This document shows, piece by piece, positions 29,295 through 35,754 of a stretch of 64,000 nucleotides of DNA. The translations under genes were made by a program, and so were the position numbers. The DNA is from Chloroflexota bacterium (GTDB lineage: Bacteria > Chloroflexota > Anaerolineae > Aggregatilineales > Phototrophicaceae): NCBI GenBank assembly GCA_011523515.1, contig WTGO01000118.1, positions 62,001-126,000 of the forward strand, in the 5' to 3' direction. The notes beneath the pieces were generated by a model. The model was not told the origin of the DNA. It searched no databases and saw only the letters and a program-made list of their open reading frames with translations. Position 1 is the first letter of the stretch; each line of letters begins with the position of its first letter.

Positions 29295-31796
<2,502 letters not shown>

Positions 31797-32153: not shown

Positions 32154-33542
32154 TTATTCACCGGCCGGATCGTCGGCGCCGCCGGTCAACTTGGCGCGGT
32201 AGTCGCCGCTCAAAACATTGGAGCCGGTTTGCTGCGAGATTACACTGACCAGCGGACGATTCACTCGTCTGCGCCGATTGATGCGCCGCCGTTCGGCTTG
32301 CGCCAGAGCGTCAGGCCGCGCCAGAACAATTACGCCGATCAGCGCCACCAGCAGCAGCATGCCGACCAGCATCACCGGCAGCACGTATTCAATGAACAAC
32401 ACCTGCCCGACTGACTCGGGGCTGCCAAATGCCGGCGCGCCGATGGCGTTGAAGACCGCGGCGCGGTAGCTGTGCTGGCTGCCCGGCACGCCCGGTTCAC
32501 GCACCAGTACGCGCGTTTCGATCAAGCCGCGCTCGGCAGGATAATCAGCCAGCGTCCGCAGGATATTCTGGTCTTCGTCCACGAAGGCCAGATTGTAGGT
32601 TCCAGCTTCCAGCTCAAGGCCGACATGCGCGCCGACGGGCAGCTGTTCAATGAGGACGCGATGCGGAATTAGCGAGCCGCAAGCGCTGTCGTCGCAGAGT
32701 GTGCCCCGCGTCGTGTACTGACCGACATCTACCAATGAGACTTGCTTGTCCGTCACCGCGTTAATCAACGAAAGTCGCATTTTGCCAACAGCCGGCGCGT
32801 TGATGTCATCTTCGAGCACGGCGACATCAACCATGCCCTCGGCATTTTCGTAGAACAGGACTGAGTGAGCCGATTCCGGCGCCAGCGCAAGCGATGCCGA
32901 ATATATTGGCGCAGACTCAAAGTCGCCAGCGCCAACGCCGACGATGAAGGTATAGTCGCCCGCCGCCACTTCAACGTACTCTTGTGCAGCCTCGCGACCG
33001 TAATCGTAAATCATACCCTCCAGGCGCAGGTCTTCTGTCGCCTCAGAAACCGGATCGAGCAGGACGTTGCCGCGAACGGTGTCTTCCAGGGTCATCGCGC
33101 GGCCCATGTCCATCACGGTAAAGGTTTGCGCTTCGCCGCCCGGGATAGCGTTAATCACGCGAATCCGCGCCTGCGCATCCGGCTGCTCCACAGGTTCGTC
33201 CGTCAACATATTCGAGGCCAGGGGAAAGGCGAATATCATCAACAGCAAGATGGCGACGCCTGTGCCGACGAAACCCAGCCAGCGCATCCGACCGGAGGTA
33301 TCGGTGGTCGTTTCCGCGCCCAGCAGCATGATGACGAAGAGGAAAAGCACCATGATGGCGCCGGTATACACAGTGACCTGCACCATAGCCAGAAAGGGCG
33401 CGTCCAGCATCAAGTACAGGAAAGCAACGCAGCCGAAATTAACGATGAGGAAGAGGGCGCTATGTACTGCGTTTTGCCGCGTCAGCATCATGCCGGCCGC
33501 CAGGACCGCCACAAAACTCACGACCAGAAACAACCATTCCAT
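32154..33542 (-). CDS. nuoJ: NADH-quinone oxidoreductase subunit J with large inserted domain
   Basis: N-term [75 protein letters not shown] and C-term [28 protein letters not shown] are NuoJ-like; ~260 aa between them are not. Confidence 0.93.
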
Positions 33543-34185: not shown

Positions 34186-35754
34186 CTACTCGCCGGCGCG
34201 CTTGAGCGCAGTCTCCCCGCTTTCGAGCATTCGATCTTCTTCGGGTGTGCGCCCGAAGCTGGCCAAGCCTTCCAGCGCGCGCACCTGGAAGCGGATATGC
34301 GCCAGCGGGATAGCGATGAGCATGCCGACCAGATGCACCAGCGCCCAGCCCAGGCCGCGCCGCTCGCCGGTATAAGCCGGGTCATCTTCCAGCGGGATGG
34401 CCTCTTCGCTGTCTCGCTCGCGACTGATGCGGCGCAGCGCCCAGGCGCCCAAGGCCAGCACCAGAACGAAGACGATTCCCGATACCAACGTATAAGCCGA
34501 CCCGCCCATGGAATCGCCCACGACCAGCGCCACCGCCGTCCAGGCCACCGCCAGCAGCGCCAGCGGAATCATCACTTTCCAGCCGAACATCATCAGCCGG
34601 TCGTAGCGGATGCGCGGCAGCGTAGCGCGAATCCAGATCATGCCGCATAGCACCAGTACGACTTTGAGTATGAATATGACCGGCGCCAGAATGGGCAAGC
34701 CATCCATCGGCCACAGGTGATACCCGCCGAAGAAAACCGCCACCGCCACCAGGCTCACGGCGATCATGCCCAGATACTCCGCCATCATAAACAGCGCGAA
34801 TTTCATGCCGCTGTATTCGGTCATATAGCCCTGCGTCAATTCCTGCTCGGCTTCGGTCAAGTCGAAAGGCGCGCGATTGGTTTCGGCTAGAAGCGCCAGG
34901 ATGAGCACAGCGGCCGCCAGCGGATTCTGAAACACGAACCAATCCCAGATATTGCGCTGGGCGTCAATGATATCGCCAATCGCCATGCTGCCGACGATCA
35001 TGACCGGCACTGCCAGCGTCAGCGCAAAGCTGAGCTCGTAACTGATCATCTGGGCCGAGGCGCGCAGCGCGCCCAACATGGCGTACTTGTTGTCGCTGGA
35101 CCAGCCAGCCAGCACGACGCCATAGGTGGCGATGCTGGTGATCGCGATAACCCAGAGGACGCCGACATTGGAATCAATCAAGCCTTGAGGCACTTGAAAC
35201 CAGACATCGCCCAGCGACGGCGCGAACCAAGGCAGTACCAGGTCCGGTCCCATCGGTATCACGGCAGCGATCATCAGAATGGGAATCACTTTGATCATGG
35301 GCGCCAGGCGGAATACCCACTTGTCGGCGCCGGCCGGCATCAAGTCTTCTTTGAACACCAGCTTGACGCCATCGGCCGCCGGCTGCATGAAGCCCATGGG
35401 ACCAACACGATTCGGCCCGACGCGGTGCTGTAAGAAAGCCAGCAGCCGCCGCTCCAGCAGAGTAGAGTACGCGAAACCGGTCACGATGACGAAGGCGAAG
35501 CCGGCAGCAAAGATGATCGGCCACAATGCCGTGCAGCCCGCGTCATCCGCGCATTGCACGACGTTGATCACGCGCGCTTCCGGGTTGAGCAGCAGCCCGA
35601 TGGCGCCTTCGCGACCGTTGAGATTGCCGGCGTCGTCGAAACCGATCCAGGCCGCGATCGCGCCTAAATTGGCGATCACCAGCACCAGGACTACGATAGT
35701 TCCGATCAAGCCGATTAGGGCTGCACCAATGCCGATCTTTAGATTTCGGCTCAT
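34186..35754 (-). CDS. nuoH: NADH-quinone oxidoreductase subunit H (extended)
   Basis: ERRLLAFLQHRVGPNRVGPMGFMQPAADGVKLVFKED, AETNRAPFDLTEAEQELTQGYMTEYSGMKFALFMMAEY; 522 aa, longer than typical. Confidence 0.96.
   Translation of the reverse strand: MSRNLKIGIGAALIGLIGTIVVLVLVIANLGAIAAWIGFDDAGNLNGREGAIGLLLNPEARVINVVQCADDAGCTALWPIIFAAGFAFVIVTGFAYSTLLERRLLAFLQHRVGPNRVGPMGFMQPAADGVKLVFKEDLMPAGADKWVFRLAPMIKVIPILMIAAVIPMGPDLVLPWFAPSLGDVWFQVPQGLIDSNVGVLWVIAITSIATYGVVLAGWSSDNKYAMLGALRASAQMISYELSFALTLAVPVMIVGSMAIGDIIDAQRNIWDWFVFQNPLAAAVLILALLAETNRAPFDLTEAEQELTQGYMTEYSGMKFALFMMAEYLGMIAVSLVAVAVFFGGYHLWPMDGLPILAPVIFILKVVLVLCGMIWIRATLPRIRYDRLMMFGWKVMIPLALLAVAWTAVALVVGDSMGGSAYTLVSGIVFVLVLALGAWALRRISRERDSEEAIPLEDDPAYTGERRGLGWALVHLVGMLIAIPLAHIRFQVRALEGLASFGRTPEEDRMLESGETALKRAGE

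Follow-up and report, generated by a model that had tools for sequence, protein, structure and literature searches.

Why does a membrane-embedded core subunit of complex I carry about 250 additional residues in the middle of its chain, on which side of the membrane do they lie, and what might they do there? These questions are raised by a nuoJ gene in a 64,000-nucleotide stretch of a Chloroflexota genome, the whole of which is called the window here. The open reading frame (32154..33542, minus strand) encodes a product of 462 aa, in which Pfam finds both the NuoJ/ND6 family (Oxidored_q3, PF00499; E 1.1e-36, 126.2 bits against a gathering cut-off of 33.2) and DUF4397 (PF14344; E 1.8e-10), the Oxidored_q3 match consisting of two stretches with the DUF4397 match in between. 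The NCBIfam equivalogs for NuoJ reach a top score of 114.4 bits, against a cut-off of 192 (NF005165), and here too the match is split in two by the insert. The gene is flanked by nuoI and nuoK in a complete operon (nuoA, B, C, D, E, F, G, H, I, J, K, L, M and N, minus strand, 43674 to 26125), with identities assigned by Pfam for A, H, I, J, K and L and by sequence and gene order for the others, and the neighbourhood around nuoJ is the same in relatives. Hydropathy places hydrophobic stretches at residues ~1-23, 24-58, 48-81, 86-115 and 377-416, and none was found at residues 116-376. The TM1-TM4 core (residues 1-113; 33204..33542, minus strand; omega 0.02-0.08) includes the conserved TM3 stretch, in which Y59, G61-F67, F69-L73 and G75 are invariant in the order-wide alignment. 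Behind the insert the core is rejoined by an FGSP motif and TM5 (residues 369-410; 32313..32438, minus strand; omega 0.00-0.07), as seen by alignment with the short NuoJ of sister families, and a basic C-terminal tail follows (residues 411-462, stop codon included; 32154..32312, minus strand; net charge +5 over residues 409-462). A sequence-only reading of this DNA had called the frame NuoJ-like over TM1 to TM4 and again at TM5, and soluble over residues ~115-375 (32418-33200); the two Pfam stretches and the hydropathy bear this out, and the coordinates are right. The five-helix core, the conserved TM3, the position between nuoI and nuoK and the PF00499 score above cut-off are shared with NuoJ, Nqo10 and ND6, and solved NuoJ chains such as 8e9g_J and 3rko_J are matched. 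However, those NuoJ/ND6 chains that the PDB search found have 161-252 aa, match the profile in their TM parts, and are without any counterpart of the insert. We conclude that the window NuoJ is a genuine and probably functional subunit of a 14-subunit, NADH-dehydrogenase type complex I.

In the same operon, NuoL (29295-31796, minus strand) has two His/Asp-rich loops, ADAHADDEAHADDSHAEDDGHGEAAAHA and HGVEHGHHHVHEHSHGDDHHHEEF, that are suggestive of metal binding, and NuoH (34186-35754, minus strand) is 522 aa long, with an added N-terminal hydrophobic segment, a C-terminal extension and a loop that holds a Cys pair (VVQCADDAGCTALWP). The same genome (G000) encodes a second, shorter nuo cluster with nuoA, H, J, K, L and M-type genes on contig C92, where an HNH-endonuclease ORF, possibly a homing-type element, lies between nuoA and nuoH (L065:4195-5088). 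NuoJ of this cluster has the normal length of 170 aa, hence the additional domain is present on only one of the two enzymes of the genome.

The inserted residues sit exactly between TM4 and TM5 (window 32418-33200 corresponds to NuoJ residues 115-375) and are made of two units. Unit 1 (residues 124-252; 32787..33173, minus strand) is a DUF4397 domain by its Pfam match (E 1.8e-10, 41.8 bits, cut-off 30.6). Unit 2 (residues 253-368; 32439..32786, minus strand) is a diverged, DUF4397-like sequence without a Pfam match of its own in the window protein, which is related to unit 1 by hhalign and colinear with secreted tandem DUF4397 proteins. When residues 122-254 and 254-372 were aligned over 19 diverse members and the two profiles compared, hhalign returned a probability of 90-94 and E-values of 1.5e-7 to 1.9e-7, and thus the units are repeats of one domain. 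The NuoJ plus DUF4397 architecture was found in 19/19 diverse members scanned, with E-values up to 0.01 for the DUF4397 match, which excludes chance. Nearly invariant across the order are R128 and the A-G-x-Y motif (G195, Y197) in unit 1 and R256 in unit 2. An intein or other mobile insert was rejected, as Pfam shows no such domain in NuoJ. What had been described from the letters as a beta-rich, DUF4397-like double domain of two similar units is therefore confirmed as a repeat, including both motifs quoted for it. For unit 1 the description stands in full, with a Pfam score over the cut-off and a predicted beta domain at residues ~121-245, whereas for unit 2 the putative DUF4397 assignment comes from the hhalign match to unit 1 (E 1.5e-7) and from colinearity with secreted tandem proteins, and the structural model is of low confidence.

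Inserted NuoJ is a property of a whole clade. All 34 genomes of the genus, which is sponge-associated, encode it in the same uninterrupted frame, and searches with an alignment profile find it in ~132/151 genomes of the order (counted by hand; several of these forms end at contig ends), spanning five families with near-universal retention. The rest of the 151 have a normal-length NuoJ (nine genomes of families f2, f5 and f6 and one of f3) or no usable primary copy (nine genomes). The named relatives are Anaerolineae or Chloroflexi metagenome bins, among them bin20 from a study of the sponge Aplysina aerophoba (PMC5649159); as that study placed other Chloroflexi bins in Caldilineaceae, the order is probably Caldilineales. 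Outside the order the insert was not detected by profile search in samples of 199 class genomes and 301 phylum genomes; PF00499 scores inserted NuoJ lower, and the A2 alignment profile was used for the class search. An assembly chimera or annotation artefact, which would have left close relatives with a normal-length NuoJ, is ruled out by the same frame in the 34 genus and ~132/151 order genomes from many separate assemblies, and we regard its probability as negligible: nothing was found in its favour, all close relatives carry the insert, and a NuoJ of normal length is seen in the sister families and one nested genome. In a tree of 29 taxa built from NuoH, I, K, L and M, the insert forms are one clade (UFBoot 100) and families f5 and f6, which have no insert, are its sister. 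The nested genome (G285), placed in family f3 with support 1.0, encodes a clean normal-length NuoJ (L117:5711-6352), which we take as a secondary loss, a misassembly being less likely. Hence, the insert was gained once and lost at least once. As an intact normal NuoJ remains after this loss, insert and pumping core can be separated.

The two units differ in conservation within the genus. Mean identity within the genus is 92% in the core, 70% in unit 2 and 47% in unit 1 (33-78% in the pairs compared), and across the order it is 59% in the core and ~27% in each of the units; within the genus unit 1 is the faster evolving part and unit 2 the better conserved one. Pairwise comparisons of genus members, by a simple Nei-Gojobori estimate in which some dS values are near or at saturation, gave a dN/dS of 0.06-0.35 in the insert units and of 0.00-0.08 in the core. 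The insert is under purifying selection; it is constrained, yet evolves faster than the core. These values bear on the idea that the pair is a tolerated passenger, inserted once into a permissive loop and kept as its removal is rarely neutral, without a specific partner. Evolution several times faster than that of the core and the one clean loss would fit such a history, but the omega of 0.06-0.35 and the retention in five families argue for selection, and Cys pairs at differing places in three clades for maintained folding, so that a passenger seems very improbable to us.

On which side of the membrane the insert lies can be deduced from several independent signs, namely topology, charge, cysteine parity and secreted homologues. 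They place it almost certainly outside the cytoplasm, and we are highly confident that it forms an ectodomain on the outer face of complex I. Of the five TM helices of NuoJ/ND6, TM3 and TM4 are joined by a loop that touches the TM1-2 loop of NuoA/ND3 and may be located between the peripheral arm and the membrane arm (PMC10212512). With the TM3-4 loop at the arm interface of a five-helix protein, the TM4-5 loop comes to lie on the other, outward side. All members scored (19/19) have an acidic insert (net -6 to -38), while the C-terminal tail is basic in most of the members scored and is predicted to be cytoplasmic by the positive-inside rule. The insert has an even number of cysteines (0, 2 or 4) in 19/19 members. 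Cys283 and Cys288 of unit 2 (32679..32696, minus strand), invariant in the 18 genus-level sequences aligned, are proposed to form a disulfide, and the genome encodes a VKOR disulfide-forming enzyme. In the sponge genus, f7 and f8 the Cys pairs stand at differing positions, as expected if the disulfides arose separately.

Compared with the insert profile, secreted tandem DUF4397 proteins of this and related Chloroflexota genomes line up colinearly with most of unit 1 and unit 2 (E 1e-32 to 1e-54 for the full proteins). The tandem homologues examined have signal-peptide-like N-termini, as judged by eye; one of them also carries an SH3 domain and one a C-terminal segment that is hydrophobic and anchor-like, and no complex I subunit is among them. 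Besides nuoJ, a single DUF4397 gene was found in the window's genome (contig C23, L118:2441-5125); its 895-aa frame has a start resembling a signal peptide and contains DUF4397 repeats as well as a bacterial SH3 domain, and its BLASTP alignment with the insert is colinear across both units. Judged by sequence, the insert is homologous to these secreted tandem proteins. Together with topology, charge, cysteine parity, clade-wide conservation and purifying selection, this gives substance to the suggestion, first made in the sequence-only reading, that complex I here carries an extra extracytoplasmic domain of a cell-surface kind. Bacterial SH3 domains are often found on cell-wall proteins. The SH3 domain of the own-genome homologue would agree with an envelope anchor, in which the inserted domains would hold complex I in place in the envelope by binding a polymer of the cell wall or outside the cell. 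Pfam, however, finds no SH3 or known carbohydrate-binding domain in the NuoJ insert itself, the acidic character of the insert disfavours binding of an acidic polymer, and its structural relative AlgF is a mediator of protein-protein contacts that does not bind alginate (PMC10641220). Hence, we consider anchoring improbable.

The predicted fold bears, by analogy, on a possible function. AlphaFold, run on an 18-sequence alignment, models residues ~121-245 as a beta domain with mostly good confidence (block means 50-89, most >70; the blocks of unit 1 are mostly at pLDDT 73-89), and unit 1 is predicted to fold as a beta-sandwich. The mean pLDDT of the full-length model is 49.6, with low confidence in unit 2 and most of the TM part, and unit 2 folded alone (18 sequences) gave a pLDDT of 48 and no fold match. 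A region without any folded domain is thus not what the models show, at least for unit 1. In Foldseek the full model comes closest to PepT2 (E 2e-4) and to the isolated PepT2 ectodomain (E 5e-4), and the matches to the PepT2/PepT1 ectodomain span E 2e-4 to 8.5e-3; PepT1, HGSNAT and AlgF rank behind PepT2, the AlgF domains being weakly matched. A sequence profile independently but weakly picks PepT2 (E 0.0046) and PepT1 (E 0.022). As the TM-scores are low (0.36 on the 189-residue PepT2 ectodomain), the likeness to PepT and AlgF is a resemblance in fold class and not evidence of homology.

PepT1 and PepT2 (SLC15), the best fold match in the PDB, carry tandem immunoglobulin-like beta-sandwiches within a TM loop of a proton-coupled membrane protein (PMC4597091), although their host is an MFS peptide transporter and the sequence similarity is not convincing (profile E 0.0046). 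Deletion of the ectodomain in PepT2 leaves the KM of transport unchanged, and PepT ectodomains bind trypsin (PMC4597091), which is an implausible ligand for the NuoJ insert. AlgF, a protein of alginate O-acetylation in which a DUF4397 domain has been recorded (PMC7349177), likewise consists of two tandem periplasmic beta-sandwiches; they mediate protein-protein contacts, and its authors named the PepT ectodomains as the closest structural resemblance (PMC10641220). AlgF differs from the insert in being a separate soluble periplasmic protein of the alginate machinery and not part of a membrane subunit. In the open-access literature searched, DUF4397 appears only in a table of archaellins, in a chitinase and in a paper with a title on phage nucleases. 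A bacterial complex I with a periplasmic domain was not found there.

In our reading, a tandem DUF4397 pair entered the TM4-TM5 loop of NuoJ in the common ancestor of a single clade within an Anaerolineae order. The pair would be AlgF/PepT-ectodomain-like beta-sandwiches of a kind otherwise found in secreted proteins, and almost certainly projects outward on the P side, beside NuoH, A and K in the proximal part of the membrane arm. There it may serve for docking and keep a protein partner from outside the cytoplasm in place against complex I, while staying apart from the proton-pumping machinery. The partner might be another respiratory complex, an assembly factor or an envelope protein. Among docking, envelope anchoring and supercomplex assembly, the roles that had been suggested from the sequence at the outset, docking is favoured, on the basis of the fold likeness to PepT1/2 and AlgF (PMC4597091; PMC10641220). 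Most economically, the insert may be read as a docking ectodomain peculiar to this order, on the outer side of complex I, and for the docking role itself the case is evenly balanced in our judgement. Beta-sandwiches also act as spacers or structural caps, the full-length model has a mean pLDDT of 49.6 and its Foldseek matches have low TM-scores, and the strong variability of unit 1 is compatible with a changing partner as well as with weak constraint. As candidate partners the genome offers a cytochrome b and a single haem-copper oxidase, although nothing ties either to the insert. Alternative complex III was rejected as a partner, since no NrfD-family match was found in the genome.

Conservation of unit 2 within the genus (70%) would also suit a structural stabiliser, with the tandem packing on the outer face of NuoH/A/J/K/N and replacing supernumerary subunits that brace the membrane arm elsewhere. 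E. coli complex I offers a precedent, as it stabilises its peripheral arm by subunit extensions and a 94-residue insertion in NuoG, and these extensions overlap with supernumerary subunits of other species (PMC8357420). A larger NuoH, too, is seen in the families with the insert; however, it is large in f5 and f6 as well, which have no insert, and much less so in f2 and the class outgroups. Moreover, unit 1 is poorly conserved for a packed interface, and the insert is cleanly lost in G285 and absent in the sister families while the nuo operons are otherwise normal. A stabilising role is therefore unlikely in our view, though it is to be taken seriously. Returning to docking, a more far-reaching form of it would make the insert a built-in outer-face receptor, with a specific extracytoplasmic partner (respiratory, assembly or host-interface) recruited to the pump near the E-channel or regulating it. 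We regard this as a tentative and rather doubtful idea, but if true, the receptor would be a complex I contact without counterpart in the solved NuoJ chains found.

Described additions to complex I are for the most part extra subunits or terminal and peripheral-arm extensions. Here, a domain pair sits mid-way in a membrane-embedded core subunit near the E-channel and is retained across the order, and the TM4-TM5 loop of NuoJ thus tolerates large cargo. Sister families, the nested loss and the normal paralogue in the same genome provide a natural before/after comparison, and the NuoJ insert marks a place to seek an outer-face partner of complex I.
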